From: a virus
Virus record (IMG/VR): IMGVR_UViG_3300025141_000877
Coordinates: 1 to 21,977 of that record
Length of the DNA stretch: 21,977 nt
Direction: 5' to 3' (one strand)
Part shown: positions 1,954 through 21,940 of the stretch, one piece after another
How positions within the stretch are numbered: position 1 is the stretch's first letter
Layout: every line of letters starts with the position of its first letter
Program-made: the position numbers and the translations under genes
Notes under the pieces: model-generated
Seen by the model: the letters and a program-made list of their open reading frames with translations, nothing else
Databases searched by the model: none
Told to the model about the DNA's origin: nothing

Positions 1954-2929
1954 TGATTTTAGTTTTGCAATGCTGCCACCTGGCGCCACAAGCACCACTT
2001 TGGAAGAATTGGGATTGCTTTCCTCTACGATTGAAACAATCGATTTTGCTTTGGTGTCTTGGGTCAAAGAAGATTTAAACCTCAGCGCCAAAAGCAACGA
2101 GGGGTTCACCCAAGTACCCGTTCTGTGGCAAACGCCGGAACGCTCTTACCAAATTAAGAACAATGAGGCACTCCGAGATGACGGGGGCGCCCTGAAGTTG
2201 CCCCTGATAAGCGTCGAGCGCACCAATATTGCCAAAGACCCCTCTCGCAAAGGCGCATACCAGGCACAAACTTATTCCACTGATAAAAATGGTCGCACTG
2301 GCCGCATCGTTTTAGCAAAGCGCATCAAGCAAGATAAAACACGCAATTTTGCTGTTGCCGCTGGGACGAGAACATCCACCGAAGCCGCAGAACAATATTA
2401 TTATCCGAGAGTGAACCAAAAACTTGTCATTCAATATCTATCGATCCCAATCCCTGTTTATATTAATGTGGATTACAAAATAACGATAAAAACTGAATAC
2501 CAGCAGCAAATGAACGAGTTGATGACGCCGTTTATGGCCCGAACCGGCCAGATTAATTCGTTTGTAATGCGTAGAAATGGTCACCTATATGAAGCATTCA
2601 TTGATCAAGATTTTACTCATAATAATAATGTTAGTAATCTTGACGAAGATATGCGTATGTTTACCACTGAAATTATAATTAGAGTATTGGGATATCTCAT
2701 CGGTGAGGGCCCCAACGATGACCGCCCCATTGTTCGCATCGATGAAAATTTTGTAGAGATTACATATCCTAGCGAGACAATCGTAACGGGAGAGGATTCT
2801 TTCTTCGGTGCCGCATCTATTCATGAAGACTCTTTTGCCAATGACGCCGGCACAACCATGTCAAACGACTACTTCCAACAGAATATGCCGGGCTCAGGGT
2901 CGGGACCTACTGGGTTTAAGAGATTTTAA
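1943..2929 (+). CDS. Tail terminator / sheath-stabilising protein, T4 gp15-like
   Basis: A 328-aa protein taking ATG 1943. The order of segments matches what I know of T4 gp15. First comes a VPVLWQTPERSYQ-type strand (about 58-70), then a LP-x-IS-x-ER segment (about 86-93). Next is an IPIPVYINVDYKITIKTEY strand followed by a QQMNELMTPFM helix (about 168-198). Last is an SNLDEDMRMFTTEIIIRVLGYLIG segment (about 231-254). gp15 forms the ring that caps tube and sheath at the head-proximal end and joins the tail to the neck. The C-terminal 60 residues are acidic then Gly/Pro/Asn-rich and probably flexible. The gene overlaps the upstream gene by 11 bases and is followed by a hairpin before the sheath gene, so it closes the neck module. 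Longer than T4 gp15 (about 270 aa). Confidence 0.65.
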   Translation: MLPDDFSFAMLPPGATSTTLEELGLLSSTIETIDFALVSWVKEDLNLSAKSNEGFTQVPVLWQTPERSYQIKNNEALRDDGGALKLPLISVERTNIAKDPSRKGAYQAQTYSTDKNGRTGRIVLAKRIKQDKTRNFAVAAGTRTSTEAAEQYYYPRVNQKLVIQYLSIPIPVYINVDYKITIKTEYQQQMNELMTPFMARTGQINSFVMRRNGHLYEAFIDQDFTHNNNVSNLDEDMRMFTTEIIIRVLGYLIGEGPNDDRPIVRIDENFVEITYPSETIVTGEDSFFGAASIHEDSFANDAGTTMSNDYFQQNMPGSGSGPTGFKRF

Positions 2930-2957
2930 GGCCCTAAGTGGCGAAAATCACGCACTT

Positions 2958-2993
2958 CCTGAACTGAAAGCCATATTATCAGTTTAGTTCAGG
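2958..2993 (+). terminator. Stem-loop terminator candidate between neck module and sheath
   Basis: Arms 2958-2968 and 2983-2993 (core CCTGAACT / AGTTCAGG) form an 11-bp stem with one G-U pair and a 14-base loop, followed by AGTTTTA and then CCTTTT a few bases on. This looks like a rho-independent terminator with a weak T tract, placed 29 bases after the tail terminator stop and before promoter-like element 2. It could instead be an RNA processing or stability hairpin. Confidence 0.5.
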
Positions 2994-3013
2994 AGTTTTA
3001 GCGCCTTTTGAAA

Positions 3014-3029
3014 TTGAAAATACTATTTA
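3014..3029 (+). promoter_or_regulatory. Candidate phage late promoter element, copy 2
   Basis: TTGAAAATACTATTTA matches element 1 at 14 of 16 positions with the same spacing and lies 57 bases before the sheath ATG, just after the terminator-like hairpin. A terminator followed by a promoter is the expected arrangement for a new transcription unit that begins with the very highly expressed sheath. Confidence 0.4.
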
Positions 3030-3086
3030 AGGTTGATGGCAAAAAACAATGTATAGCATTTGTTTTAAGAAGAAAGGGAGTAAGGA

Positions 3087-6119: not shown

Positions 6120-9092
6120 ATGTCAGTAAAAGATTTCAAGTTTGTATCTCCCGGAGTTTTCATTAATGAAATTGACAACTCTTTCGTGCCAAAATCCGCT
6201 GATGCGATTGGGCCCGTTATTATTGGCCGCGCGCCCCGCGGCCCAGCCGGACAGCCTGTTAAAGTACAATCCTACTCAGAATTTGTAGAAGTATTTGGAG
6301 ATACAGTCCCCGGCAATGCCGGCGGTGATGTATCGCGAGACACAGTTAATCTTCAATCGCCAATGTATGGAACGTATGCTGCTAAAGCTTTCTTGGGTGC
6401 CAATGTGGCTCCTCTTACATACGTGCGTGTGCTCGGAGAGCAAGACACAAATAAAGACGGAACTGCCGCGTCCAAAGCCGGCTGGCGTACTGATTGGTTT
6501 CAATCCGGCGCATATGGCGGCGGCGCTTTCGGCCTTTGGGTTGCTAAATCCTCATCCGCGGGACCCTTCACTGGCAACACAGCTATGCAGTTGGCCGCTA
6601 TTTGGTATAATGACAATGGGGGTATGGCCCTTTCAGGGTCGCTGTGGGGTGAAGCATCCTCCTCCGCGAACAGCCCATCCGCATGGTCGGATTGGACGAA
6701 GACCTATACCGACAGCCAATGTCCCACTAACGGGGCCCTCATTTGTTCGGATACGAGTGGGATATTTACCGTTGTGATCAGCGGATCAAATAATGCATCC
6801 ACGCCGGAGAAAATATCCTTTAGTTTAAATGATGCAAACGCTAATTTCCTCCGTAAAAAGTTTAACACAAATCCTCAATTGCGCGTGAATGGGGACTTTT
6901 ACCCCACTTCGGCCAAGAAAGATTATTGGCTTGGAGAATCCTTTGAACAAGAGCTTAGAGATAAAAATCTTACCGATGCCACCACACTGGTAGGTGTGAT
7001 CACAGGAATCCAACTGAGTGCCTCATCCAATTACGAAGGCCCAGCTAACATGCTTGGGCAAGCCTCTCGCGAGGCGGTTGCGGGCTGGTTTATTAGCCAA
7101 GACACCGGCACTCCAACTGCTTTCAATCCCGAGACAAGCCCAAAGGGGTTATTTCGACTTCGTGGCCGCGGCCATGGCTCGTGGTTGAGTCGAAATTGTA
7201 AAGTTTCTATTGAAAACATTCGCCAATCTACGACCACCCTTAACGACTACGGAACATTTTCAGTAGTTATCCGATCAATTAACGACACAGACAATAACGT
7301 GCAGGTCATGGAACGCTTTGATGGCTTGGATCTCAATCCTGCCTCTCCAAATTATATTGGGAAGCAAATCGGGGATATGCGTCAAGTATGGTCTGATACC
7401 GATCGTCGTCTTGTGGAATATGGCCAGTACCCTAACCGCTCTAAATTTGTTTGGGTGCAGGTGGTCGACGCAATTGACTCTGGTGGTGGAGTTGGCCTTG
7501 AAGCCCTTCTCCCCTTCGGATATCAAGGCCCCCCGATCCCCACGTCCCAGCTGCTCTCCGCGCCTAGCTATACAAGCAATTCCGCCGGCACACAGGCGTC
7601 GGGTAGCAACTACGTCAATATTGGCGCCACATTGCCGAATTGGATTGCGGCCGCCGACCATGGCAATCTTTCGGCCTCTTTGCCTGTTTCATGTTCTTTT
7701 GAGTTCCCATCCGTGCGCCTCCGCCAATCAGCATCTGACGGAGGCATGAGCAGCTATCGTGATGCTTATTTTGGCTATCAAACTACTCGCACTTCTGGGA
7801 GCAGTCAAAATGGCCCTAGTGCCAAAGATTTTGGCATGTTGTGGACACAGCTAGCCAATGGGTACGATCCCGGTACAGGATCTGTGGTGACGGCCACGGG
7901 TCTTCTCGGCTATTCATACATTTTTACCCTCGACGATGTTGCCACAGGGAGCGCGGGGTATGCAAGTGCTTATTATAGCTCAGGGTCACGATCGAATTCG
8001 AGCCCCCACCAGAGTAGCGTAACGTTTCATGATGGTTACGAAGCACTTCTTAATAACAGAATTAATAAATTTACTGCTCCTTTCTGGGGCGGAACTGATG
8101 GGTTTAACATTCGAGTACCCGATCCTCTGTGGAACGGAGCAATGGATACATCCACTTCAACCAATATTAATGATTCGGTATTTTATACCTGGAAACGCGC
8201 GATTGATACGGTGGCGGATCCCGAAGTCATAGATATGAATGTCCTATCGGCACCGGGCCTAAGCACCAACTCTCTTACGGCGCACATGATTAATACTTGC
8301 GAGAGCCGAGCCGATGCACTCGCATTAATTGACATCGCCAACGCATATAAGCCCGCATCCGAGGGGTACGAATCCAGCCTATCAAATCGACTCCCCAACA
8401 CGGCGAGGCAGATTGCCAACAACATGAAGTCGCGACGTCTTGATTCGTCATATGGGGCAGCTTTTTACCCATGGGTTCAAACACAAGATGGTGCGGCCGG
8501 CCAGCTTGTGTGGGTTCCGCCCACGGTAGCCATGATGGGCGTTCTGGCAAGTTCCGAGCGCAAGTCAAAGATCTGGTTTGCTCCTGCTGGATTTAACCGC
8601 GCAACCCTCTCTGACGGCGCCGCCGGCATTCCGATCACAAAGGTGGTCACGCGCCTCACCTCAGATAATCGTGACACACTTTATGATGCGCGTATCAATC
8701 CAATTGCCTCCTTCTCCAGCACGGGAATTGTTGTGTTCGGGCAGAAGACTTTGCAGGAGCGCGCATCTGCACTTGATAGAATCAACGTGCGGCGCCTGGT
8801 GATTTACTTGAAGAAGCAGATCTCCATCCTATCAACCAAAGTTCTTTTCGAGCAGAATGTTCAGGCAACTTGGAATAGATTTAAGGGTCTTATTGAGCCC
8901 TTCTTGGCAAATGTCAAGACAGACTTCGGGATCACCGATTATCGATTAATTCTTGACGAGAACACCACCACAGCAGATTTGATTGATCGCAACATTTTAT
9001 ATGCTAAGATTATGATCAAGCCTGCGCGCGCTATTGAATATATTGCGATTGATTTCGCGATTCTCTCAACTGGTGCATCTTTTGACGACTAA
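6120..9092 (+). CDS. Contractile tail sheath protein 2, T4 gp18-like paralogue
   Basis: A 990-aa second sheath protein that aligns with sheath 1 over its whole length. The last 107 residues differ at only two positions, and the N-terminal 140 or so are also close. Differences concentrate in two regions: about residues 130-210, and about 500-670 in the Gly/Ser-rich part. No stop, frameshift or loss of the core is visible, so both copies look functional. Ribosome site AAGGA, 8 bases before the ATG. The DNA differs at many synonymous sites even where protein is identical, so the duplication is not recent. A mixed or layered sheath, as in contractile injection systems with several sheath paralogues (Afp and PVC), is one explanation. 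Alternative use under different conditions is another. Confidence 0.92.
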   Translation: MSVKDFKFVSPGVFINEIDNSFVPKSADAIGPVIIGRAPRGPAGQPVKVQSYSEFVEVFGDTVPGNAGGDVSRDTVNLQSPMYGTYAAKAFLGANVAPLTYVRVLGEQDTNKDGTAASKAGWRTDWFQSGAYGGGAFGLWVAKSSSAGPFTGNTAMQLAAIWYNDNGGMALSGSLWGEASSSANSPSAWSDWTKTYTDSQCPTNGALICSDTSGIFTVVISGSNNASTPEKISFSLNDANANFLRKKFNTNPQLRVNGDFYPTSAKKDYWLGESFEQELRDKNLTDATTLVGVITGIQLSASSNYEGPANMLGQASREAVAGWFISQDTGTPTAFNPETSPKGLFRLRGRGHGSWLSRNCKVSIENIRQSTTTLNDYGTFSVVIRSINDTDNNVQVMERFDGLDLNPASPNYIGKQIGDMRQVWSDTDRRLVEYGQYPNRSKFVWVQVVDAIDSGGGVGLEALLPFGYQGPPIPTSQLLSAPSYTSNSAGTQASGSNYVNIGATLPNWIAAADHGNLSASLPVSCSFEFPSVRLRQSASDGGMSSYRDAYFGYQTTRTSGSSQNGPSAKDFGMLWTQLANGYDPGTGSVVTATGLLGYSYIFTLDDVATGSAGYASAYYSSGSRSNSSPHQSSVTFHDGYEALLNNRINKFTAPFWGGTDGFNIRVPDPLWNGAMDTSTSTNINDSVFYTWKRAIDTVADPEVIDMNVLSAPGLSTNSLTAHMINTCESRADALALIDIANAYKPASEGYESSLSNRLPNTARQIANNMKSRRLDSSYGAAFYPWVQTQDGAAGQLVWVPPTVAMMGVLASSERKSKIWFAPAGFNRATLSDGAAGIPITKVVTRLTSDNRDTLYDARINPIASFSSTGIVVFGQKTLQERASALDRINVRRLVIYLKKQISILSTKVLFEQNVQATWNRFKGLIEPFLANVKTDFGITDYRLILDENTTTADLIDRNILYAKIMIKPARAIEYIAIDFAILSTGASFDD
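8062..8125 (+). repeat. 64-bp tract identical in both sheath genes, copy 2
   Basis: Partner of 5041-5104, with no mismatch over 64 bases. Shorter identical blocks also link the two genes: 3087-3112 with 6120-6145 (26 bp), 3365-3394 with 6398-6427 (30 bp), and 5547-5575 with 8568-8596 (29 bp). Confidence 0.9.
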
Positions 9093-9759: not shown

Positions 9760-10629
9760 TTGTCACGAAATAAAAATCGATTAGGTTCGACACAGAAAGA
9801 CGCAAAACTCCCTCCCCAAACTATTCTCCAAGACACCGAAACAGCACCCGCCACGGGCCCGCTATCGTTCGTTGTTCCGACAGAATTTGTTGATTTGCCC
9901 TCGGGAGGAAGATTTTATCCAGAAGGGCACCCCCTCCATGGTCAGGAGTGCATTGAAATCAAGCAAATGACCGCCAAAGAAGAAGATATTCTCACTTCGC
10001 GCGCATTACTCAAAAAGGGCATTGCACTAGACCGCATAATTGAAAGTGTTATTGTCCACAAGGGCGTTAATCCTCAAGATTTGCTCATTGGCGATCGAAA
10101 CGCCATTATTGTTGCTACCCGGGTTTCGGGATACGGGCAGGAATATGTTACAGGCGTAACGTGCCCCAATTGTTCACATAGTCAGAAATATGCTTTTGAT
10201 TTAAATGAAGGTATGGTCTACCGCGGCGAAGATGTGGAAGACCTTGATGTCACCGATCACGGCGATGGCACTTTTTCCACCACCCTCCCGAGAAGCGGGT
10301 TTGAGGTGGGTTTTCGCCTTCTAACCGGCCGTGATGAAAAAAAGTTAGCTGCGTATGCAGAGCAAACACGCAAGCGCAAAGGTCCCGATCGCGTCATTAC
10401 TACGCAATTAGCCAGTATGATCGTTTCGATTAACGGAGAGGCCGATCCGGCCACCATTTCACAAGCAATTAATGTATTGCCGTCTATGGACTCCCGCCAC
10501 CTACGCGCAGCTTACAAGTTATCAGCCCCCAATGTCGATCTGTCGCAACATTTTGAGTGCGAAGAGTGCGGTCATGAAGAGACCATGGAGGTGCCGCTTA
10601 CAGCGGACTTTTTTTGGCCTGACCGGTGA
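9760..10629 (+). CDS. T4 gp26-like baseplate hub assembly protein / tail assembly chaperone, with zinc ribbon
   Basis: A 289-aa protein starting at TTG 9760 with a GAGGTG ribosome site 4 bases before it. After a 35-residue polar leader come the typical segments of the T4 gp26-like baseplate family: VPTEFVDLPSGGRFYPEGHP (39-58), EIKQMTAKEEDILTSRALLKKG (66-87), then LLIGDRNAIIVATRVSGYG (108-126). Two CxxC pairs (C135/C138 in CPNC and C267/C270 in CEEC) could form a zinc ribbon, split by a helical insert. The gene lies between tube and tape measure, where tail assembly chaperones are found, and ends in TTTTTTT at 10609-10615 followed by WPDR and a stop. The next gene is open in the +1 frame across that run, so a frameshift fusion is possible. 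Confidence 0.75.
   Translation: MSRNKNRLGSTQKDAKLPPQTILQDTETAPATGPLSFVVPTEFVDLPSGGRFYPEGHPLHGQECIEIKQMTAKEEDILTSRALLKKGIALDRIIESVIVHKGVNPQDLLIGDRNAIIVATRVSGYGQEYVTGVTCPNCSHSQKYAFDLNEGMVYRGEDVEDLDVTDHGDGTFSTTLPRSGFEVGFRLLTGRDEKKLAAYAEQTRKRKGPDRVITTQLASMIVSINGEADPATISQAINVLPSMDSRHLRAAYKLSAPNVDLSQHFECEECGHEETMEVPLTADFFWPDR
10609..10615 (+). other. Possible programmed frameshift site (T7 run)
   Basis: Seven T lie four sense codons before the stop of the gp26-like gene (GAC TTT TTT TGG). The downstream small gene is in the +1 (equivalently -2) frame, and that frame is open from before the run through to 10867. A +1 or -2 slip here would produce a fusion of the two proteins, as tail assembly chaperone pairs do in many phages. 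No experimental evidence; no clear downstream pseudoknot was seen. Confidence 0.35.
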
Positions 10630-10633
10630 ATAT

Positions 10634-10867
10634 ATGGAGAACGTGTATGAGCAGTTTTTCTTCCTGCAGTATTCAGGGGGTTGGTCATTCACCGAAGCAT
10701 ATAACCTGCCGGTTGGCTTAAGGACGTGGTTTGTCGAACGTCTCGTCAGGCAAATTGAAAAAGAAAACGAGGCTATGCAAGGTGCATCTAAGGGCCAAGG
10801 CCAAACACAAACGCTCACAGCACAAAATCAGCCTTCACAACAGCGATATCGTTCAGGAAAAAACTGA
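10634..10867 (+). CDS. Small conserved phage protein following gp26-like gene (tail assembly chaperone partner)
   Basis: A 77-aa protein, taking ATG 10634. A GGTGA ribosome site overlaps the stop of the upstream gene (10625-10629), so translation is probably coupled. The first 50 residues (MENVYEQFFFLQYSGGWSF, then TEAYNLPVGLRTWFVERLVRQIEKENEAMQ) are a helical pattern I recognise from the short gene that follows gp26-like genes in T4-type phages. The tail is Gln/Thr/Ser-rich and probably disordered. The frame is also open upstream to 10472, but those codons overlap the gp26-like gene and read like shadow sequence. Likely works with the gp26-like protein in baseplate or tube assembly; the role is inferred from position. 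Confidence 0.65.
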   Translation: MENVYEQFFFLQYSGGWSFTEAYNLPVGLRTWFVERLVRQIEKENEAMQGASKGQGQTQTLTAQNQPSQQRYRSGKN

Positions 10868-10875
10868 AAACTCAT

Positions 10876-10906
10876 TAAATAGTATTTTTGATAGGCAAAC
10901 TATTTA
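10876..10906. repeat. Inverted pair of ACTATTTA motifs before the tape measure gene
   Basis: TAAATAGT (10876-10883) and ACTATTTA (10899-10906) are perfect 8-bp inverted arms with a 15-base spacer in the 65-base gap. The left arm, read on the minus strand, also carries an A-rich block before ACTATTTA and matches promoter-like element 2 at 14 of 16 positions, so this gap may hold two divergent copies. Confidence 0.5.
10888..10906 (+). promoter_or_regulatory. Candidate phage late promoter element, copy 3
   Basis: TTGATAGGCAAACTATTTA lies 26 bases before the tape measure GTG. It has the same TTGATA block and ACTATTTA core as element 1 but 3 extra spacer bases. It would start the long transcription unit covering tape measure, baseplate, polymerase-like and tubulin-like genes. 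Confidence 0.35.
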
Positions 10907-10932
10907 TTTCTGAGTGAAAAGGGAAAATTTCC

Positions 10933-13599
10933 GTGGCCGATGACATAACACCAGAACAGATAGAACTAAAAGAAAAACTTCTCGACATGATTCGACGGGG
11001 GATTCGCCTCACTGAAGATCAAAAAGATCAGCTTAAAGAGTTGCTTGATTTGGGCGAACGCCGCCTTGCAAGCTTGGTGGAAGAAAGCGGCGCTCTTGAT
11101 CGCCAACTTGGCAAATATGCCAAACTCAAAGATTCCGAAGACAAGCGCATCTTAATGGCCGAAACTGCTAAAACTTTAGCGGAGACAAACCTAAGAATTG
11201 CCAAACAACAGTTAGCCAACGCTACGGATATCGGCATCAAGGAGCAAGAGCAGTTTGACACCGCAGTCAAAAACTTAAAGGTAGCGGAAAAGAACCTTGA
11301 AGTAGCCAAGGGGACCACGAAAGCCATCCAAGAAGGCGCCCAAGCCGGCCAACAACTCGGGGCATCCATGGCCTCGATGTTTGATGCATATGGCCAACAC
11401 CCGTTCTTTAACGCCAAGAACATAGTCCTTTTAGGCAAGGTAGTGCGAGGCCTGGCAGACAAGAACATGAAGCCTTTAGACAATTTGATTGGTGGCATGG
11501 TTGGAGGCTCCCTGGCCGCCATTGCCGGCTCCTTTATCAATCTTATCTTCTTGACTGACAAAACTCAAAGCACCTTCCGTCGAGCCACCGGCGCCGGCAA
11601 GGAATATGCGTCCTCGATTTCGAGCGTTTATGAGCAAACGCGTGAATACGGAGTCGAGCTTGAAGATATAAATGCAACTATGCAGTCCCTCTATACAACG
11701 TATTCGGACTTTACCATGATATCAAAAACCCAGCGCGACGATCTCATTGAAACAGGTGCTCTTCTCAAAGAATTAGGTGTGTCTAGCGAGGACTTTGCGC
11801 AAGGGGTCCAAACGCAAACAAAGATGTTTGGCCTAAGCACACACGCAGCTGCCGCCAATTCTCGCGAGCTAGCTGATTTTGCACAACAGATAGGTGTGGC
11901 TCCCGCTCAGATGGGCAAGGACTTTGCTGCAGCCGGCACCGGTATTGCTAAATTAGGCGATGACGGTGTGCGCGCATTTAAACAGTTGGCCATCGTGGCT
12001 AAGACCACGGGCCTGGAAATCAATAAATTGCTCAATATTGTCGACAAGTTTGACACTTTCGAAGGCGCCGCAACACAGGCCGGAAAACTGAACGCAGCAT
12101 TGGGGGGCAACTTTGTTAATGCCATGGACCTCATGACTGCCACAGATCCAGTTGAGCGTTTTGAAATGATCCGCGATTCAATTTTAAACGCTGGATTGTC
12201 ATTTGACGAAATGTCCTATTACCAGCGTCTTTTCTATAAAGACGCTGTTGGCCTCGACAGCGTGGGCGATTTAGCCCTTATGTTATCGGGGGATATGAGC
12301 AAGCTATCGGGCGCGACCCGACAAAATACCGCTGATTATAAGCGTCTTCAGAAAGAATCTCAAGATATCATGTCCGTCACCGAAAAATTCAAAGCTTTAA
12401 TGGTGAGCTTAATTCCCACTGCTAATGACATTATAAAAAGAATTCAAGATTGGACTACCGAATTACAGGGTAATGAGAAAATGCAAGAAGACATCGCGAA
12501 TAAAATCCAGATGGTTACCGACGTCGTTATTAAACTAGGCGAGGGCATCGTCGTCTTAGCTGAGAACTGGGGAAAGCTCATCTGGGCCTGGGCCTTCTTT
12601 AAGGCGGCCGGCCTTTTATACAAGCTTGGCCTCCTAAGCACGTGGTTTGGCGTCACAATGCCCACCGCGGCCGCCGGCGGCAGCGCTGCATTTAATGGCG
12701 CGGCCGTAGAAATGGGCGCCGGCATCGAACTATTAGGAGGCGCCGCAACATCGGTTGCAGGCGGCCTGTGGACATTGGCTGCGGTTATTGTGGCGATTGG
12801 TGTTTCCATAGCCATTGCCTCCGTGGGGCTGGCGTATTTGGTCACCTCGTTTCAGGGCATGGGCTGGGAAGCCGCGGCAGCCGCAATTGCCATCGGGCTG
12901 GTGGCGGGAGCGTTCTATCTGATGATCCCTGCACTGACCGGCCTGGTAGCCGCCATGGTGCCTGGCACGCCGGCGCTGTGGTCACTTGCCGGCGCAATTG
13001 TGGCCCTGGGGGCGGGAGTATTTCTGGCTGCAGGTGGAATGGCGCTCTTGGCCCTCGCGGTTGGCGAAATGTTTAAGAGCATCGACTGGAAAAAGGCGCT
13101 CGCTCTGGCAGCGCTCATATCCGTGACCGCCATATTCGGCTCGCTTCTCATAGTTGCCGCAGCCGGCATGACGGCGTTTGCCGCGGCCCTCGTAGTCTTC
13201 GGGGCAGCCCTGTTGCTCTTCCCCACGAGCGACTTGGAGCCAATCACAGAGTTCTTAACCTCCGTGTCCGCGGCCGGCGCAGCGGCCATCAGTCTAGGTC
13301 TCGTTGCGCTTGCCATTCGCGAGATTGGTGACGAAATTGAGTTATTGCCTGAAATGAAGGATTTCCAGACCACAATGCGAGTAATGGCGCAAGCCTCGTA
13401 CGCAACTACCGAATCTGCCAAATTGCGCGGGCCCGCCGCTGCAGTGGCGGCGGCTGCAAATGCAGGCGGTGGCGCCGGCGCAACTCAGACCCCCTATCAC
13501 CTTACGGTAGAACTCAAAGTGGATCGCGAGGTATTAGGCAAACAGGTACTTACTTTGGTGGATGGCCAGTGCAGGCAAGCAGGGTTCGGCCAGGCATGA
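10933..13599 (+). CDS. Tail tape measure protein
   Basis: An 888-aa protein starting at GTG behind an AAGGGA site. Residues 1-135 are charged and heptad-like (LKEKLLDMIRRG, DQLKELLDLGERRLASLVEE), consistent with long coiled coils. Residues about 165-205 hold a Gly/Ala-rich segment. About 215-500 is a helical repeat-like region with many Gln/Asp/Leu, typical of tape measures. From about 538 to 795 come several long hydrophobic stretches (about 613-641, 645-675, 678-707, 719-762 and 775-791) that may insert in the host membrane during DNA entry. The protein sits inside the tube, sets its length and leaves ahead of the DNA. At roughly 0.15 nm per helical residue, 888 aa would fit a tail of about 130 nm, which is an estimate only. 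Large size and position after the chaperone pair support the call. Confidence 0.85.
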   Translation: MADDITPEQIELKEKLLDMIRRGIRLTEDQKDQLKELLDLGERRLASLVEESGALDRQLGKYAKLKDSEDKRILMAETAKTLAETNLRIAKQQLANATDIGIKEQEQFDTAVKNLKVAEKNLEVAKGTTKAIQEGAQAGQQLGASMASMFDAYGQHPFFNAKNIVLLGKVVRGLADKNMKPLDNLIGGMVGGSLAAIAGSFINLIFLTDKTQSTFRRATGAGKEYASSISSVYEQTREYGVELEDINATMQSLYTTYSDFTMISKTQRDDLIETGALLKELGVSSEDFAQGVQTQTKMFGLSTHAAAANSRELADFAQQIGVAPAQMGKDFAAAGTGIAKLGDDGVRAFKQLAIVAKTTGLEINKLLNIVDKFDTFEGAATQAGKLNAALGGNFVNAMDLMTATDPVERFEMIRDSILNAGLSFDEMSYYQRLFYKDAVGLDSVGDLALMLSGDMSKLSGATRQNTADYKRLQKESQDIMSVTEKFKALMVSLIPTANDIIKRIQDWTTELQGNEKMQEDIANKIQMVTDVVIKLGEGIVVLAENWGKLIWAWAFFKAAGLLYKLGLLSTWFGVTMPTAAAGGSAAFNGAAVEMGAGIELLGGAATSVAGGLWTLAAVIVAIGVSIAIASVGLAYLVTSFQGMGWEAAAAAIAIGLVAGAFYLMIPALTGLVAAMVPGTPALWSLAGAIVALGAGVFLAAGGMALLALAVGEMFKSIDWKKALALAALISVTAIFGSLLIVAAAGMTAFAAALVVFGAALLLFPTSDLEPITEFLTSVSAAGAAAISLGLVALAIREIGDEIELLPEMKDFQTTMRVMAQASYATTESAKLRGPAAAVAAAANAGGGAGATQTPYHLTVELKVDREVLGKQVLTLVDGQCRQAGFGQA

Positions 13600-13626
13600 T
13601 AAAAACGTTTTCCAAGGAGATAGGCC

Positions 13627-14730
13627 ATGGCCGAAAATAAACTACCTGCCGGATATTTCAATGCTTTCAAATATGAGGGAAAGCCGGGATCATATGTAGA
13701 TCCCACCATCTCGTTGGCAAACACCTCTGAGATGGTGGTGTCGGTTCAGCACGAACCCACCGGCCGAGCGGTCTTTTTCAAGGCGTTCATCTCTGCTTTT
13801 AATGAATCATATAGTAGCGACTGGGTATCCGAAACAGTATTTGGGCGGTCAGATCCCATCCAGCACTTCAAGCAAACATCCAGAAGGATATCCTTGGGGC
13901 TTATCATTCCTGCGGCAACAGCAGGCGAGGCATACGAACAGCTAGGACGAGTGCAACAGCTTGTTCAGTTTTTGTATCCCAACTATACAACACGCAACGC
14001 GGCGACCACATTGACTCAAAATCCTCTTGTGCGCCTCAAGGTGATGAACCTTGCGCAGCGTTCTGATGTAGATGGATCTTCACCCCCGCCCAATCCCGCG
14101 CTACCAAACAACAAACTGTATGAAAGCTACGTTTCGACTTCAGATGCGGATAGGGGTCTGTTGGGAGTGATCACGAACTTAAACATAGCCCACAATTTAG
14201 AAAATGCAGATATGGGTGTCATTGCCAAGGGCGCCAATACGATTCTTCCCAAAATGATAGAATTAAATCTGGATTTTGTCGCAATTCACGAAGCCACACT
14301 GGGGTGGATCCAAGAAGACGGTAAGAATACTCCATCATTCGGCGCCGAAGCATTTCCGTACGGAATTCGACTTGGAGATGACACCACGCCCGACCCAGAC
14401 AAGAACGTTTCTCCCGATGAGCAAGCTCGAAACGAGCAGGCGCGCCAAAACGCTGATCGTCGCTATGGGGTTGCATTTGCTCAGGCGCGCTTTAACAAGG
14501 ATAAAGAGTGGCTGAAGGCCTACCACGACCGCCTGAACAAGGTCGACAACCTGGATGCAGCCAATAGAGCCTCCCAAACTGGCGACATGACAGGCCTCTC
14601 GCGTGACGAAAAGTACCTCGCCAAGAACTGGGCCAACTATGAATATCTTGCTTCAGCCCAGACCGGCGCAGGTCTGGAGGGCTACAAAGGCCAAAAAGGC
14701 AAAAAAGTGCAAGATTTTGTCGGCGATTAA
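13627..14730 (+). CDS. Putative baseplate protein / tail tube initiator
   Basis: A 367-aa protein with an AAGGAGA site 6 bases before the ATG. Residues 40-125 carry the most telling pattern: a beta hairpin (GRAVFFKAFISAFNESYSSDW), VFGRSDPIQHFKQTSRRISLGL, IIPAATAGEAYEQL, and VQFLYPNY. I have seen this shape (F-x-A-F, then GR-x-DP, then T-x-R-x-I-x-x-x-x-x-IPA, then YP-x-Y) in baseplate proteins that lie between tape measure and a LysM protein. After a second beta-rich segment (about 150-240, ending ILPKMIELNLDFVAIHEATLGW) the last 110 residues are highly charged helix. It probably nucleates or caps the tube at the baseplate, in a job comparable to T4 gp48/gp54, but no sequence match to those is visible. 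Confidence 0.55.
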   Translation: MAENKLPAGYFNAFKYEGKPGSYVDPTISLANTSEMVVSVQHEPTGRAVFFKAFISAFNESYSSDWVSETVFGRSDPIQHFKQTSRRISLGLIIPAATAGEAYEQLGRVQQLVQFLYPNYTTRNAATTLTQNPLVRLKVMNLAQRSDVDGSSPPPNPALPNNKLYESYVSTSDADRGLLGVITNLNIAHNLENADMGVIAKGANTILPKMIELNLDFVAIHEATLGWIQEDGKNTPSFGAEAFPYGIRLGDDTTPDPDKNVSPDEQARNEQARQNADRRYGVAFAQARFNKDKEWLKAYHDRLNKVDNLDAANRASQTGDMTGLSRDEKYLAKNWANYEYLASAQTGAGLEGYKGQKGKKVQDFVGD

Positions 14731-14760: not shown

Positions 14761-15099
14761 ATGGGACGATATATACATACAGAAATTTTAGACAATGACA
14801 GCGAATATTATCGCTTTCTGAGAAGCAAAAGACAAAACCAAAAGAACATTCGTCAATATGCAACTCCTCGATTGGTAAACCCGGGCCAGCTGCAACGCAT
14901 GTTGCTGACTGTAGATTCTTACATTTGGAAACTGGGAGATCATTTTTGGAAAATATCAGCTGAATATTACAACGATCCAACATATTGGTGGGTAATCGCT
15001 TGGTATAATGGCTACCCAACCGAGGGCGACATTGCTCCCGGGGCCCTAATTGACATTCCTACTAATTTAGCAGAGATCCTAGAAGCATTGGGGTATTAA
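14761..15099 (+). CDS. LysM-like baseplate protein, T4 gp53-like
   Basis: A 112-aa protein with a strong GGGAGGT site. Residues about 58-107 form a LysM-type domain: DSYIWKLGDHFWKISAEYYND, then PTYWWVIAWYNGYPTEGDIAPGALIDIP. The order of starting strand, helix with YY-D-PTYWWVIAWYN, and final IDIP strand is the form seen in phage baseplate LysM proteins. T4 gp53, a baseplate wedge subunit, has this fold and is 196 aa; this one is nearly the bare domain plus an N-terminal arm rich in Arg/Gln. In phages this domain mostly makes protein contacts in the baseplate rather than binding peptidoglycan. It sits between the putative tube initiator and the hub-like gene, which starts only 4 bases after its stop. 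Confidence 0.75.
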   Translation: MGRYIHTEILDNDSEYYRFLRSKRQNQKNIRQYATPRLVNPGQLQRMLLTVDSYIWKLGDHFWKISAEYYNDPTYWWVIAWYNGYPTEGDIAPGALIDIPTNLAEILEALGY

Positions 15100-15103
15100 T
15101 AAT

Positions 15104-18100
15104 ATGACTAAGAAGTGTGAATTTACCACAGACGATCTAGGCGACCACGGAAGTAATGTTTCCACGTGGCTGACGGATAATTGCGCCAAAATCGGCGAAG
15201 CTATTGATGCGCTGGTGAATGAGGACTTAGTTGGTTCCGGAGGTGCTCAATTTGGGGAACAGGTAGACACGAACAGCCTGGGGTATGTTGGCCTTGTCGA
15301 AAACAAAGATAATCAATTCAAACAACTTTTTCAAAAAGTTGGCAAACCGGCAATAGATAGCTTTTATCAGCGCCGCGATCCACAGCCGGCCTGGATTCCG
15401 CGCATAGGAAGTATTGCGACTTCGGCCGGCTCAGAAAGTTTCACGGGGATATACAAAGAACTTCTAAATACGAAAGAACTTCATAAAAATCAGAAGAATA
15501 TGGAGATTATCACCAAGTCCGCCACCACCTTAAATAAACAGCTAACGACAGCCGAACAAGATTTGAACGCCGTCAAGCAGCTGGTTAAGGCCGTCAAAGC
15601 TGACAAACCCGCCGGCGGCATTCCCACTCCGGACGATGCCCACCTCGGCTGGCTAGCCGTCCACGCTGGCGACGGTGTCCAGAGTCTTGCATATCTCGAA
15701 GAGCAAGTGACCAATATGGAGGCCCACCTCTCCAATACGCGGCTGGCGGTTGATCAGCTGCTGGAACTCCAGAAGAGTTGGCAAGCCCTGATGGACAGGA
15801 ATGCCAAGGCGGCAGAACGCTTGCACAATCTCCTTCAGCTCAATATAAACAACAAATATATAGATGACACAGAATGCCTTAAGAAGTATGGAAAGACCTG
15901 CATCGAGAAATTAAAGGATCGACACGCGCTCAAAGAAAAGTGGCTCGACCTGAAGATGAACGCAGCGCTGAGTCTGAATTTGTTCGCCGACATGGCCGCG
16001 AAGGTACTCACCCCAGCACAAGCCGGCGCCGCCATTACGCGGCCTTTTAAAGAGCAGTGCCTACTCCTGTCTAATATATATAAATTAGCGCAATATAAGA
16101 TCAACTATCTAGAAGATCCGTATGGTGACCACAAGCGCATAGCTAAAAAGCTTCCTTATGTGGAATCGGCCATCCCCGAAGGGTTCTCCGACCCGGACCC
16201 CGACGGCGGAGCCCCTCCGCTGCCCCCCACGGTAGGAAATGCTTGCTTGATGGCGCAAGGAAATCCTTGGGGATTCATCAACATATTAACACAAGATAGC
16301 AATTACGCAACTTTGTTGGATATTCCTAATTCATATTTGTCTCAGCTTGCACCTAAAATTAGCTTGTTCAAAGTTGTATCAGTCAAACAGGGCGCTTCCG
16401 AAGGTGTGCTGCCCATCACGTTTGATACTCATTATGATTCAACCAACGACTTAGAAAACATATTTAAAAACCAAGACAAGCGGGGGTTTGGTGTTGGCCT
16501 TAAAAGCTTCAATTTTTCATATGAAGGCAGCAATCCATTTGCAGTTAAAAAAAGCATCAAAGCTAAACTCGTTATTTTTGCAAGCTCTTTTGATGATCTT
16601 TTGGTTGATCGTGGTGGTTGGCGATATGCCGATCTTGCTCTTAAAACAGGTGGCAATTTGCAAGAATTTTTGGAGCGTAGCAATCAAACAGCAGATGCTA
16701 TCGTGGCCAATGTCACTAAATTGAATTTTCGCCTAAGAGTCGTGGTTGGTTGGCAAATGCCTATAGGACGCTGGGAGGGTGGCAAGGCCGCCGGCAGCGA
16801 TATCAAGAGCGCTGGAACGCCGCTTCAAAAAGCGGTGTATAACTCTTTTTTTACTTTAAATTTGACTCCTACAATTCATGAATTTGACATTGACGATCTG
16901 GGTCGCGTGGTGTTTACAATTAATTATTTGGCTTATACTGAGGATTTCTTTGATCAGCCAAGCTTTAATATTTTCGCCAATCACAAAAACCATATCGAGT
17001 CCATGAAGCGAAAAATGAAAGTAGCCGCATGGAACGAGGGGTGCACCCCCGAAGCCGCCAGAGACTTAAAAGAAAAGGAAGCGCAAAAAGTAGAAAAGGA
17101 GAAAAAAGAGAATCTAAGCACTGTTCTGGGACACCTCTTGAAAAGAGACAAGATCATGTTCGTGCCTATTCCGAGATCTGATCTTGCGGTGTTTAATGAG
17201 AAAGGCCCTTATTATGATATTCCCTTGCTCAGCGATAAACCACAATTTGGAAATGTTGCCGACAGCGACAAGATCAAGAGGGATTTTAAGGATGCCCTCG
17301 ACGCCACTTATAAACAATTCAAAGACGGAAAAGATCTCAGCCAAACTCCAATTGCCAATATGAGCCAAACAGAATATGTCTCGTTTTTTTATGTAAGCGA
17401 CTTGGTGGATATTGTGTTAGAAAACATTGAATTAAGTTTAGATAAGTTAATTGACGCGCTAACTAAAGAAAAAGACCCACCCTCCGAATTAGATAACGCC
17501 AAAGAACACTGGGAAGCTCTTAGGGTTGTGGAACTGGAACGACTTCATCGGTTGAAATTTAATTTTAAACACTTCCGCGTGCTATTGGGCCCCATGGAGT
17601 TGTTTGATTTTAAAACAGGCGCCGTTAGGGACACCAACTTGGGAGATGTTCCCATATCGGTTTCTTATTTTATGGATTGGCTTACGCAAAAAGTGCTCAG
17701 CAAAGACGTGACGGTTTACACGTTGCCCAACTTTTTAAACGATTTGTTTAATGGTCTCGTTCGCATCTTCCTCAACAATGACACGTGTTATGATATCAAC
17801 ATTAAACAAAAGACAAGAGTGTTCCAGTCGGTAGTGACCAGCTATGCGTGGCAAAAAGCTACCTACGATGAAATTACCGAATACATATTGGCCCAGCGCA
17901 AAAGCAAAACGGGAGCCAAGAATCTCTCGCGGATGCTCGTCGACAAGCAGAAGTTCGATCCAGGCCGCACAAGCGGAATATTAAATGTGATGGGTGTTCG
18001 CGATATGCCGATTAACAAGCGCGATCCGGCCCTTGAGTATAACTATTTGATTTACTATGCCGGCCGAACACAACCCACAGAAAGAATGCAGGGAAATAAA

Positions 18101-18604
18101 GCCCAAGACGCTGCCAGTGGTATTTTTCACTATATGATTGGTAAGCCCGACGGACTTGTGAAGACAATCAAGCTTACGCGCACAGATTCGCCAGGGTTGA
18201 AAGAAGTGCGCTTTGAGCAGGAGGGCTATGACGGGTTAGCACAGCTTAGAGAAACGTATGATGCCACTATTGAGTGTTATGGTTCTCCCAACATTGTGCC
18301 AGGAACTTATATTTACATTGATCCGCGAGGGTTTGCACCCAAAAATAAGGGCACCCAGGGCCGGTATACATTTAAAGATCGTAATGGCGCGGATGTTGTA
18401 ATTGATAGATTTTTATTGACGCGCTATGGTATCGGGGGTTATTATATGGTGATAAGAACAGAAAACAAGTTGGCCGCGGGAGAGTTTAACACTACCATCA
18501 TAGCCAAATGGGTGGCCGAACTGGGGGATCCCAATGATCAGCGTCCTTATGCCGGCCCACGGCCGAGTAAGTGCGCAGTTGAGAAGCCGGCGCTTGTAGG
18601 CTGA
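15104..18604 (+). CDS. Large baseplate hub-like structural protein
   Basis: A 1166-aa protein starting 4 bases after the LysM gene with only a weak GGGG site, so probably coupled. Residues about 120-250 are charged helix, likely coiled coil. A Pro/Gly/Asp-rich linker is at about 363-376. A beta-rich core follows (about 415-620) containing KISLFKVVSVKQG, GFGVGLKSFNFSYEGSNPF and FDIDDLGRVVFTINYLAYTE. A Lys/Glu helix lies at about 650-670. The C-terminal region (about 1030-1155) has a VRFEQEGYDGLAQLRETYDA run, then GTYIYIDPRGF, then LTRYGIGGYYMVIRTENK. This last part reads like the hub domains that link tube to spike. Position after the LysM gene fits a hub role (T4 gp27 place). No lysozyme or peptidase motif was seen. 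Base composition is uneven, with GC-rich patches near 15550-15800 and 16170-16240. Confidence 0.55.
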   Translation: MTKKCEFTTDDLGDHGSNVSTWLTDNCAKIGEAIDALVNEDLVGSGGAQFGEQVDTNSLGYVGLVENKDNQFKQLFQKVGKPAIDSFYQRRDPQPAWIPRIGSIATSAGSESFTGIYKELLNTKELHKNQKNMEIITKSATTLNKQLTTAEQDLNAVKQLVKAVKADKPAGGIPTPDDAHLGWLAVHAGDGVQSLAYLEEQVTNMEAHLSNTRLAVDQLLELQKSWQALMDRNAKAAERLHNLLQLNINNKYIDDTECLKKYGKTCIEKLKDRHALKEKWLDLKMNAALSLNLFADMAAKVLTPAQAGAAITRPFKEQCLLLSNIYKLAQYKINYLEDPYGDHKRIAKKLPYVESAIPEGFSDPDPDGGAPPLPPTVGNACLMAQGNPWGFINILTQDSNYATLLDIPNSYLSQLAPKISLFKVVSVKQGASEGVLPITFDTHYDSTNDLENIFKNQDKRGFGVGLKSFNFSYEGSNPFAVKKSIKAKLVIFASSFDDLLVDRGGWRYADLALKTGGNLQEFLERSNQTADAIVANVTKLNFRLRVVVGWQMPIGRWEGGKAAGSDIKSAGTPLQKAVYNSFFTLNLTPTIHEFDIDDLGRVVFTINYLAYTEDFFDQPSFNIFANHKNHIESMKRKMKVAAWNEGCTPEAARDLKEKEAQKVEKEKKENLSTVLGHLLKRDKIMFVPIPRSDLAVFNEKGPYYDIPLLSDKPQFGNVADSDKIKRDFKDALDATYKQFKDGKDLSQTPIANMSQTEYVSFFYVSDLVDIVLENIELSLDKLIDALTKEKDPPSELDNAKEHWEALRVVELERLHRLKFNFKHFRVLLGPMELFDFKTGAVRDTNLGDVPISVSYFMDWLTQKVLSKDVTVYTLPNFLNDLFNGLVRIFLNNDTCYDINIKQKTRVFQSVVTSYAWQKATYDEITEYILAQRKSKTGAKNLSRMLVDKQKFDPGRTSGILNVMGVRDMPINKRDPALEYNYLIYYAGRTQPTERMQGNKAQDAASGIFHYMIGKPDGLVKTIKLTRTDSPGLKEVRFEQEGYDGLAQLRETYDATIECYGSPNIVPGTYIYIDPRGFAPKNKGTQGRYTFKDRNGADVVIDRFLLTRYGIGGYYMVIRTENKLAAGEFNTTIIAKWVAELGDPNDQRPYAGPRPSKCAVEKPALVG

Positions 18605-18621: not shown

Positions 18622-19887
18622 ATGTCAGATGATTACGCAGAAGGAAACGATGAAAGCACGATAGCATTGTTTTTTAAGCGCGCCATCTATTTTCAAGACG
18701 CCAACAACGATCAGTATTATAGAGATGGCAATCAAAATCTAGTGGACTTTGGGTTCGCAGAAAAACGCCTGTATGGGCGTGTTGATAGGAAATATGTTCC
18801 CATAATATTAAATGATCGGATACTCCCCCTGAAAGACATAGCTTCACGACCATCTAAGCTCAGCGGCTTTCGCTTAGCCTCGTTTGCCGCAGACGCATTT
18901 AAAGATTTACAACTACAATTTCAAAAAAGTGTTTTGGCGCGCCAAATCCGCCCCAATGAAAAATACCTAAGCGAAATCGTCCCAGCCAAGGCATACGAGA
19001 ATCCACAACAATTATATTACCAACATTCAATCAAGCTTGAAACAGTGCTGTCAGCCCATTCTGTGGCAAATAATATTACTTTCCGTACTTTTGATGAGTT
19101 TCTATTGTACTACCGCCAAATGATTCATAAAATGGCGCCTAATTTCCCGTTTACCCTTCCGGCATATATTAAAAGCTGGCGCTGCCCTATGACGGTTACA
19201 GGCCTGGTAGTGGAGATAGCAGATTTAAATCATGCAAATGATCAAGAAAAAATTGATTTATTTGTTAATAGTCCAAATTGGTCTTTTTACCTAAATGCTT
19301 GTCGTACCTATGGTTTTTCCGTCGACAGGAACTCTCCATGGCGAATGGTTGCAGACATAGCGTCACAGCCAATGTTGGAATATGCGAGAGCATACGGAGC
19401 AAACAGCACAGAGGAAATTTTAACTCTGGGGTATAGGCCTGGCACTGCTCGATTTTATGCTGGATTTAAATCTTATTTGTTGCGGAATTATAACAAGCTT
19501 AAGCCCAAGCAATACCTGCAAACGGAGTATTGTGAGAATACGGGCAAAGCTCTGGTGGAGACGATTACCCCAGAGTCGTACACGCAGGAGGTCCTCACAC
19601 ACAGATACCCAGAAGAGTTTTTTTTAGAGTTATATTTCGACATGAGGTTTGCAGAAGAAGAGCACTCACTTGCTCTAAATCAGCAAAAAAGAATTGTGGC
19701 GGAGGCGCTGGATTTATATCGTCTTTATCACACATTAAAGGATTTCTCTCGAATGGACGCAGCACAGCGCGCCGTAGAAAGATTCGAGACCATAATAAAT
19801 AAGACCTATGATTACTCCGGGTCCTTGACAGACGTGACTAGTCGTGCTATGATTAGAGAAACAGCCAATTTAGACGAAATGGAGTAA
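18622..19887 (+). CDS. Conserved phage protein of unknown function, probably structural
   Basis: A 421-aa protein with an AAGGGAG site 9 bases before the ATG. The N-terminal 75 residues are acidic and aromatic (YFQDANNDQYYRDGNQ). The central part has the segments LPAYIKSWRCPMTVTGLVVE, FVNSPNWSFYLNACRTYGF and VDRNSPWRMVADIASQPM. The Trp-Arg-Met-Val-Ala-Asp element and the following MLEYARAYG helix feel conserved and I believe related proteins occur beside baseplate genes of other large myoviruses, but I cannot give a function. The C-terminal 100 residues are mostly helical with many Glu/Arg/Leu. It follows the hub-like gene by 17 bases and ends 2 bases before the polymerase-like gene, so it links the structural and polymerase parts of the operon. 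Confidence 0.6.
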   Translation: MSDDYAEGNDESTIALFFKRAIYFQDANNDQYYRDGNQNLVDFGFAEKRLYGRVDRKYVPIILNDRILPLKDIASRPSKLSGFRLASFAADAFKDLQLQFQKSVLARQIRPNEKYLSEIVPAKAYENPQQLYYQHSIKLETVLSAHSVANNITFRTFDEFLLYYRQMIHKMAPNFPFTLPAYIKSWRCPMTVTGLVVEIADLNHANDQEKIDLFVNSPNWSFYLNACRTYGFSVDRNSPWRMVADIASQPMLEYARAYGANSTEEILTLGYRPGTARFYAGFKSYLLRNYNKLKPKQYLQTEYCENTGKALVETITPESYTQEVLTHRYPEEFFLELYFDMRFAEEEHSLALNQQKRIVAEALDLYRLYHTLKDFSRMDAAQRAVERFETIINKTYDYSGSLTDVTSRAMIRETANLDEME

Positions 19888-19889
19888 TA

Positions 19890-21077
19890 TTGCTTTTTCA
19901 AACTCTCGATGACAAACAGGAGTGTGTGGGGGTCTACGCCAATGGTAATTTATATTTTGATAAGATTCCGCCAGATCTAAGCAAAACATGGAAATATACG
20001 GGCTCTATCGAATCCGACGAGGTTGAGTATGCCTGGATTTATTGCCATGGCAAAAGCATTTCTGAAGCCTGCCCCGAGCGCCTACAGGGCACCTGGGAGC
20101 GAGTTTTCAAGAAGCTCACAGCATACAAGAAAGCATTCACAATCGCCAAATTGGATTTACGCGAACATTGCTTTTTTGACCTTGTGCCTGATGATGCTTT
20201 GGTTGAGTTTTGCGAGGTTAAAAATCAAATTACCGAACATATTTTTGAAAATTATGAAAAACCCGAGAACTATGATTATTTGAATGATGCGGCCAAATTG
20301 CTCTATAAGATAAAGCACCGAGATTTGCTTTTAGAGCGCAAGGACTGGCGCCACCACTTTAGAAGCCACAGTCTGCTTGCCGGCGCCAACAAGATCGTCA
20401 ACGGAAATCATCATATAGATTATAACCTCTTTGGGACCGTCACGGGGCGCCTATCGACCCACCCGGGCTCGTTGCCCATCCTCACGATGAAGAGAGAATT
20501 ACGTAGAGTTATTAAGCCCCGGAATGATTGGTTCTTGTCATTAGATTACAATGGGGCCGAAGCACGAACAGTGCTGGCATTGTCGGAACAGACACAGCCG
20601 CCAATTGATATTCACGAATGGAATATGCGTCATGTGTTTGAAGAAAGCACCCTTGTGAGAGAAGAGGCGAAAACCCTGTTCTTTGCATGGCTTTATAATC
20701 CTGATTCGCGCGCTATCCGGACAAATTACTATGATCGTCAAAAAGTACTTGACAGGCACTACGATGGTGATTATATTAATACTATATTCGGGAGGGATAT
20801 TCAGGTCGATCGCCGTAGAGCGTTCAATTATATTATCCAGAGCACCACTGCTGATTTGGTAATTGAGCGCGCAATTGCAATTGACAATTTTTTGGAAGGG
20901 AGAGCATCGTTTGTTTCTCACATCGTTCATGATGAAATCGTCATTGATTTTTCAGACGACGAAAGGGACCTGATAGTGGAAATTAGGGATCTATTTGCCA
21001 ACAACCGATTGGGGCACTTCATGGTCAACTTAAAGGCCGGCAAAGATTATTATGACCTGAAGACATTAACAATATGA
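19890..21077 (+). CDS. Compact family A DNA polymerase-like protein
   Basis: A 395-aa protein starting at TTG, with GGAG 5 bases upstream inside the previous gene's end. The key family A residues appear in order with the spacing of E. coli Pol I: TGRLS with R187 (R668); motif A DYNGAEAR with D219 and E224 (D705, E710); O-helix R257, K261, F265 and Y269 (R754, K758, F762, Y766); IQSTTAD with Q317 (Q849); motif C HDE 347-349 (H881-D882-E883). Palm and fingers thus look intact. The O-helix glycines are replaced (FFAWLYN) and the finger region is short. Only about 180 residues precede TGRLS, too few for an exonuclease plus thumb, and no DxE exonuclease motif was seen. It probably fills or copies DNA without proofreading, but primer use and activity are unknown. 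A place among baseplate genes is unusual; virion packaging is possible. Confidence 0.75.
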   Translation: MLFQTLDDKQECVGVYANGNLYFDKIPPDLSKTWKYTGSIESDEVEYAWIYCHGKSISEACPERLQGTWERVFKKLTAYKKAFTIAKLDLREHCFFDLVPDDALVEFCEVKNQITEHIFENYEKPENYDYLNDAAKLLYKIKHRDLLLERKDWRHHFRSHSLLAGANKIVNGNHHIDYNLFGTVTGRLSTHPGSLPILTMKRELRRVIKPRNDWFLSLDYNGAEARTVLALSEQTQPPIDIHEWNMRHVFEESTLVREEAKTLFFAWLYNPDSRAIRTNYYDRQKVLDRHYDGDYINTIFGRDIQVDRRRAFNYIIQSTTADLVIERAIAIDNFLEGRASFVSHIVHDEIVIDFSDDERDLIVEIRDLFANNRLGHFMVNLKAGKDYYDLKTLTI

Positions 21078-21940
21078 TATCGATAGTTGGAATTGGCAAC
21101 GGCGCCTCAGCAGTTGCTGGAAAATTTCTTGAGTTTTCGCAATATAACGTATACTTGCTGAATGATAAAATTGAAAAATCTGCGGGACGTAGGCGCCGCC
21201 TAAAGTCGTTCTCTTCTCCTGAAGAATATGAGAGCAATATCCCTGACTTAAAAAAGTTTTTTTCTAAAATTGACGATCATGTTCAGGTGTTTGTGATAGG
21301 ATCCTCATATAGCTCCAATTATACCCTAGGGATTCTAGAACAGATTAAGGACAAGAAAATTGATCTATATTATATTAAGCCCGATACGACCCTTTTAACT
21401 GGCACTCCCCGCTTGATGGAGCGCGCCGCTTTCGGGATTCTGCAGGAGTATGCCAGATCTGGTGCTTTCAACTCTATCACGCTGCTGTCCAACAAGAATC
21501 TAGAAGAAGCCCTGCAGCGCGTACCGATTAAGAAGTTCTATGACCACCTTAATGGCTCTATTGCCTCTACCGTTCATTATCTCAATTATTTCGCCCACAA
21601 TGAGCCCGAAATTGGCATTGTGGCACCACCTTTAGATGCAGCACGCATCCGCACAATTGGCATTTTGGAGACCAAAAGTATTCAAGAAAAATGGCTTTTT
21701 GACCTTGACACCCCTCGCCAACTGTGTTATTATTTATGTATAAATAAGGAAAAACTTGAGACCGACGGAGGGCTTCATAAGCGCATTGTAGACACACTAA
21801 AGCAAAAGCCAAGAAATGCTTTTCGCAACGTGTCATATGCTATTTATGAAACTGAGCACGGAAAAGACTTTGGGTTTGTCGTGGCCCATACAAACGCGAT
21901 ACAACAACAAAATACCCTTGACAAGTTAGATCAAGGGTGA
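21074..21940 (+). CDS. Divergent FtsZ/tubulin-like protein (tentative)
   Basis: A 288-aa protein whose ATG overlaps the polymerase-like stop (ATGA). By eye it follows the FtsZ/tubulin order: first strand and T1-type loop IVGIGNGAS (4-12); a segment in the place of the Gly-rich T4 loop, VIGSSYSSNYTLGIL (74-88); strand and turn DLYYIKPD (97-104); a helix RAAFGILQEYARSG (117-130); strand and T6-type loop ITLLSNKNLEE (135-145); a helix LNGSIASTVHYLNYF (159-173); and a strand after the T7-type loop, LDAARIRTIGI (187-197). The usual GGTGSG glycines are missing. In a visual alignment the E. coli FtsZ D212 position is Arg191, while D209 may be kept as D188. It may therefore not hydrolyse GTP. A Rossmann-type enzyme is the main alternative, because GIGNGAS also fits that fold. 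Confidence 0.45.
   Translation: MISIVGIGNGASAVAGKFLEFSQYNVYLLNDKIEKSAGRRRRLKSFSSPEEYESNIPDLKKFFSKIDDHVQVFVIGSSYSSNYTLGILEQIKDKKIDLYYIKPDTTLLTGTPRLMERAAFGILQEYARSGAFNSITLLSNKNLEEALQRVPIKKFYDHLNGSIASTVHYLNYFAHNEPEIGIVAPPLDAARIRTIGILETKSIQEKWLFDLDTPRQLCYYLCINKEKLETDGGLHKRIVDTLKQKPRNAFRNVSYAIYETEHGKDFGFVVAHTNAIQQQNTLDKLDQG
21914..21938 (+). repeat. Hairpin spanning the stop codon of the tubulin-like gene
   Basis: ACCCTTGA (21914-21921) and TCAAGGGT (21931-21938) are perfect 8-bp arms with a 9-base loop, and the right arm runs into the TGA. No T tract follows, so it is not a standard intrinsic terminator. It may be an RNA processing or stability element. Confidence 0.5.

Follow-up and report, generated by a model that had tools for sequence, protein, structure and literature searches.

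Near the end of the viral contig that we analysed (IMG/VR record IMGVR_UViG_3300025141_000877, 21,977 nucleotides, called the window here), a gene at 19890..21077 (+) encodes a family A DNA polymerase of 395 aa. Judged by its sequence, this protein is a member of divPolA1, the group named by Yutin et al. 2024 (Virol J 21:200; PMC11348598), and not a new family. We predict with moderate confidence, from sequence, structural model and gene context, that it is an accessory gap-filling polymerase beside a Pol III-type replicase. A large T4-like phage would then use divPolA1 as a proofreading-less, low-processivity accessory polymerase alongside its own Pol III-type replicase. What looked like the puzzle of a polymerase among tail genes becomes an accessory polymerase that appears fixed in place while the main polymerase swaps among families A, B and C. 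We refer to the short polymerase and its homologues as mini-PolA.

The polymerase gene and its fold

The gene starts with a TTG directly behind the stop of the preceding gene, and a GGAG that resembles a ribosome-binding site lies 5 nt ahead of this TTG (19881..19884, +), within the 3' end of the upstream gene. The protein matches Pfam DNA_pol_A (PF00476) with an E-value of 4.5e-16 and a score of 59.2 bits (cut-off 34.3), and it matches PHROG 17, 'DNA polymerase', at 8e-20. Its sequence matches in the PDB are Taq and Klenow. The AlphaFold2 model has a mean pLDDT of 93.1 and a pTM of 0.91, and its best PDB matches with Foldseek are the Taq, Bst and Klenow polymerases (E about 1e-11). VIA-align places the model on Bst large fragment with Z about 25 and an rmsd of 4.0 over about 350-370 residues (Z 25.3 with 354 residues aligned in one such pairing), Klenow likewise gives Z about 25, and the palm and fingers fold of Pol I is present. 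A preliminary description of the window had proposed a family A DNA polymerase here and named structure prediction and a profile search as ways to check it. Both bear the proposal out: the model has a palm and overlies Bst/Klenow Pol I, and the DNA_pol_A score is above the cut-off.

Relatives of the polymerase in IMG/VR are 36-99% identical to it. The search of IMG/VR with the alignment as query returned at least 501 candidate relatives, and the best 80 of these were kept and read. Compared with one relative, L003, the gene has a dN of 0.16 and a dS of 1.30 (dN/dS about 0.12), and purifying selection acts on it. Because of these relatives and this ratio, the reading frame is not a chance one. 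A tblastn search of deposited phages with the window protein gave no match at 1e-5, and cultured relatives were reached only via a profile and Microcystis phage Mel-JY01.

Over its last ~90 codons the polymerase gene is near-identical between the window and L003 (95-1279), with a pS of 0.23 and a pN of 0.03, whereas pS is 0.62 for the whole gene. This mosaic suggests recent recombination at the 3' end of the polymerase gene.

Catalytic positions

Thirteen catalytic positions were read across 60 relatives (alignment A2), and 11 are invariant or nearly so. R187, which corresponds to E. coli R668, is at 20448..20450 (+) and is found in 60/60. Motif A (DYNGAE, 20544..20561, +) runs from D219 (D705) to E224 (E710, the steric gate), and the Asp and the Glu are each present in all 60. 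In motif B, the O helix (20658..20696, +), the equivalents of R754, K758, F762 and Y766 are R257, K261, F265 and Y269, conserved in 60/60 except for the Phe (59/60). Q317 (Q849; 20838..20840, +) is again found in 60/60, and motif C, H347-D348-E349 (20928..20936, +; D348 being the D882 equivalent), in 60/60, 60/60 and 58/60. Looser positions are R309 (46/60) and N313 (51/60). All of the Pol I active-site residues named in the preliminary description are where it had put them, each conserved in 58-60 of the 60 relatives, and this includes the Phe at the F762 position. With motifs A, B and C intact, the window polymerase is predicted to be catalytically competent. F762Y has a known effect on dideoxynucleotide discrimination in Pol I, from which we would expect such discrimination by the window polymerase as well.

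Reduced domains

The distance from the pre-thumb motif to R668 is 41 residues in the window family versus 123 in E. coli, and that from Y269 to Q317 is 48 residues versus 83 (Y766-Q849). By these spacings the thumb is mostly lost and the fingers are shortened, with the thumb the more strongly reduced of the two. The short finger region had been recognised in the preliminary description; the thumb reduction had been missed. The same description had called the enzyme exonuclease-less, with no room for proofreading. A protein of 395 aa with its exonuclease motif residues replaced agrees with this, in that there is no working 3'-5' exonuclease, but the term needs a correction since the ~100 N-terminal residues are probably what is left of one.

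These residues (1-100; 19890..20189, +) were aligned by MAFFT with E. coli Klenow, LR756508 and gp001 of Flavobacterium phage immuto. The N-terminal FQTLDD is aligned with FDTETD, motif I of the Klenow exonuclease, and Q4 and L6 stand where Klenow has D355 and E357. The structural alignment begins where MAFFT puts this motif, with model residue 1 on Bst 316, and it extends to residue 391 on Bst 876. In LR756508 and immuto gp001 the exonuclease-like domain is more complete and likewise without D355 and E357, and the remnant in the window protein is far shorter than theirs. Sequence and structural alignments together make it probable that the first ~100 residues are the scaffold of an exonuclease domain that has shrunk. 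Klenow and Bst large fragment (PolA1) share the fold and the catalytic residues with the window protein, which differs from them in being without the exonuclease motifs, about 80 thumb-region residues and about 35 finger residues. Pfam found no fused 5'-3' nuclease domain of canonical Pol I in the 395-aa protein.

Gene neighborhood

On the tail side of the junction is a gene for a gp53-like baseplate wedge (14761..15099, +; PHROG 7145, E 8.8e-6). Between it and p421 lies the gene for a 1166-aa protein (15104..18604, +), which is conserved by synteny, presumed to be a baseplate protein by its position, and had no convincing family match in Pfam or PHROG. p421 (18622..19887, +) is immediately upstream of the polymerase, is syntenic in all loci with upstream DNA, and is spaced -26 to +38 nt from the polymerase (77 loci). 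For p421 there was no Pfam or PHROG match with the window copy, only weak and sub-threshold ones with the copies in relatives, and no match to a tail family.

The window record is a fragment that ends one gene past the polymerase. L002, a relative whose polymerase is 99% identical, has the order p421-POL-p288-SSB-RecA-5' nuclease, and this order is found in about 85 loci, followed by DnaB and RNR in contigs long enough to include them. In these loci the gp53-like gene and large baseplate-side genes are on the opposite side of the polymerase. Replication genes are downstream of the polymerase in L002 and in all relatives with enough flank. Pfam identified a gp32-type SSB (PF08804), RecA (PF00154), 5_3_exonuc (PF02739) and DnaB_C (PF03796) in the relatives' block, where the 5' nuclease is a separate gene, unlike in Pol I (PolA1). 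Read across these gene orders, the polymerase is the hinge between a tail module and an SSB-RecA-5' nuclease-DnaB-RNR module.

The preliminary description had linked the polymerase to the tail genes and not to the replication genes. This was an artefact of the contig end: only tail genes were visible because the fragment stops one gene after the polymerase, and the replication block follows in L002 and the other relatives. With the polymerase as the hinge in relatives, at the head of the replication block, its place can be explained without two of the suggestions made there, a virion-borne enzyme, which is unsupported, and a replication gene that has moved.

The tubulin-fold gene p288

The gene that follows, p288 (21074..21940, +), starts within the stop of the polymerase gene: the two share 4 nt (ATGA) in 75/77 loci. 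Its AlphaFold2 model has a pLDDT of 87.8. Foldseek matched the model to TubZ (E 7e-13) and to TubZ/FtsZ at about 1e-12, and VIA-align with CetZ gave Z 24.2 and an rmsd of 3.3 over 265 residues. According to the model, p288 has the full tubulin/FtsZ-superfamily fold; it had no convincing match in Pfam or PHROG, and a search among deposited phages did not find it. The first glycine-rich (T1-like) loop is retained as GIGNGAS. Where the GGGTGTG signature loop would be, the window copy has GSSYSSN, as placed by eye in the alignment, and because of this replacement p288 is probably not a normal GTPase.

We know of no precedent for a polymerase tied to a cytoskeletal fold, and the conserved coupling of the two genes is a new lead. 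A wider picture, which we consider speculative and rather unlikely, would be that in a widespread, mainly marine phage lineage Pol I has become two proteins, a stand-alone 5' nuclease and a near-thumbless divPolA1, the latter complexed with a GTPase-dead p288.

Relationship to divPolA1 and other known polymerases

The 14 phages in which Yutin et al. described divPolA1 include immuto as well as three genomes from the Global Ocean Virome; MK892584 and LR796625 are published examples (PMC11348598). The marine origin of the group rests on those Global Ocean Virome members. The phages additionally encode a regular family A, B or C DNA polymerase; divPolA1 itself has a truncated thumb, an inactive exonuclease and replication genes downstream, and the genes around it are more replicative in character than those around the regular polymerase (PMC11348598). 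Our direct comparison was made with immuto gp001, which has in common with the window protein a short family A sequence, conserved palm residues, a truncated thumb, an inactivated exonuclease, downstream replication genes, and its occurrence alongside a regular PolA, PolB or PolC.

The marine profile built from A2 matches immuto gp001 at 2.5e-18 and LR756508 at 5e-21, and an immuto-type profile places the marine proteins, among them the window protein at 6e-15, far above E. coli Pol I at 1e-6, all E-values being for small sets. In a tree, the marine, immuto-type and regular PolA groups join at one node with very long branches. To the question raised in the preliminary description, whether compact versions form one group, the reciprocal profiles answer with a recognisable family, the one already published as divPolA1 (PMC11348598). 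It is common in viral metagenome contigs and far more abundant than the 14 originally reported phages.

Two features distinguish the window branch. It is coupled to a tubulin-fold gene, which is a difference from divPolA1 as published. It also retains E710, H881 and E883, whereas immuto gp001, Mel-JY01 and LR756508 replace all three, with His at E710 and YDA for HDE, the Tyr standing for H881 (L106 8567-9793, L131 1-1326, L136 4917-6275). Ribonucleotide discrimination and activity may differ between that branch and the window branch, and given these substitutions activity may not be equally conserved throughout divPolA1.

The divPolA2 of barbaviruses and Vibrio phage 1.063.O is an accessory family A polymerase without exonuclease and with a variable neighborhood (PMC11348598). 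It shares the accessory status and the missing exonuclease with the window polymerase, but profile comparison showed no similarity between the two (AUR84708; 0.4 bits, E 0.11; hhalign probability 0.9%). RM378 was considered as a precedent for a split PolA and rejected; its p092 is unmatched by the A2 profile (E 0.4) and has a family B-like DFTSLYPS stretch.

The probable main replicase in the same phages

In nine of the 11 longer records, a Pol III alpha of the DnaE type (PF07733, E about 1e-54) is encoded 13-18 kb downstream of mini-PolA. The remaining two contigs end before that distance, and the window contig is likewise too short to include Pol III. In the relatives' Pol III alpha, the polymerase domain is accompanied by PHP, finger and HHH domains. 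The 11 records, which are up to 194 kb long, gave no further family A polymerase and no Pol B, although the A-family profile missed mini-PolA itself in two of them. A separately encoded proofreading subunit was also looked for and set aside; PF01612 and PF00929, for DnaQ-/PolA-type exonucleases, had no match in the 11 records, from which a divergent one could escape. The PHP domain of Pol III alpha might proofread. In L117, a 194-kb relative, Pol III alpha (10517-13951, -) has a PHP domain with HAH, TDHG, GCE, AC and DSH motifs that look by eye like metal ligands, and this Pol III alpha may proofread by itself.

Two cultured phages have other main polymerases. In immuto, gp001 is the homologous mini-PolA in the same slot, and a 777-aa PolA is encoded elsewhere. 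In Mel-JY01, WWT39333 (annotated as hypothetical) is the mini-PolA, again in the same slot, and elsewhere are a PolB and the clamp loader that adjoins it. As far as these genomes can be read, mini-PolA is constant while the main polymerase varies among the A, B and C families, and an accessory role is therefore favoured. As a cultured member of divPolA1, immuto is usable for genetics.

Near the Pol III gene of L117 there also appear to be, judged by eye, genes for a GroEL-like chaperonin (2267-3847, -), two ClpP-like proteases (3904-4566, -, and 9904-10509, -) and an IMP dehydrogenase/GMP reductase-like enzyme (6381-7427, -).

Proposed role and alternatives

In the divPolA1 of the window the active site and the steric gate are intact, and it would be a distributive enzyme, as is expected because proofreading is absent and the thumb nearly gone. 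It would fill short gaps. Together with the nearby stand-alone Pol I-type 5' nuclease, it would provide the functions of bacterial Pol I in two proteins. On the lagging strand, the RNA primers would be removed and the gaps then filled by this split pair, and divPolA1 would also fill gaps in RecA/SSB-dependent recombination. Nicks would be sealed by a ligase, perhaps one from the host because no ligase family was found in the phages (PF01068 and PF01653 had no match in the 11 records, whose completeness is uncertain). In bacteria without canonical Pol I, stand-alone 5' nucleases replace the Pol I nuclease domain almost without exception (PMC12926913). A phage with a replicase of its own, of the Pol III type or PolB, may have to supply a split Pol I as well for maturing the lagging strand. 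The repair or end-filling enzyme of the preliminary description remains plausible, and we consider gap filling the most likely job.

Several points speak against the gap-filling model: mini-PolA is not adjacent to the Pol III gene, no ligase family was found in the 11 records, the immuto/Mel-JY01/LR756508 branch has the substitutions described above, and recombination or lesion bypass would suit the neighboring SSB and RecA no less than Okazaki processing. The main rival is a recombination or damage polymerase that would work with the phage RecA and SSB in D-loop extension or lesion bypass and not in Okazaki maturation. We regard this as possible, if somewhat doubtful: SSB and RecA are the nearest conserved replication neighbors and a lack of proofreading with a reduced thumb would suit a distributive, error-tolerant enzyme, but the 5' nuclease is conserved in the block to an equal degree, and the catalytic residues and the steric-gate Glu are of the ordinary Pol I type. 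The replicative context of divPolA1 (PMC11348598) leaves room for a central role, and mini-PolA could be the true phage replicase, with Pol III alpha serving otherwise. It does have the more constant replication neighborhood, which is remarked on in the same paper. However, an enzyme with no proofreading domain and almost no thumb would be poor for copying 190 kb, and the family of the main polymerase (A, B or C) depends on the relative while mini-PolA stays constant, with the PolB of Mel-JY01 next to the clamp loader, so we hold this reading to be improbable.

A polymerase that is carried in the virion and injected with the genome, as the preliminary description had suggested, would go with the tight packing against p421 over the 77 loci. 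The packing is equally tight against p288 and the replication block, p421 lacks a tail-family match, and packaging is unsupported by the data, which makes this option very unlikely. We give hardly any more weight, if not slightly less, to a scaffold that has lost catalysis, such as a partner of p288. The near-invariant overlap with p288 and the loss of some catalytic residues in the immuto/Mel-JY01 branch would suit a scaffold, but nine catalytic positions are 60/60 in the window branch despite identity down to 36%.

Tandem sheath-like genes

Among the tail genes, the window has two tandem tail-sheath-like genes (3087-6071 and 6120-9092) of 994 and 990 aa, which are 74% identical and have near-identical C-termini. 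The pair appears to be a duplicated sheath gene, its sheath identity being judged by eye and from the neighboring tail-tube gene.
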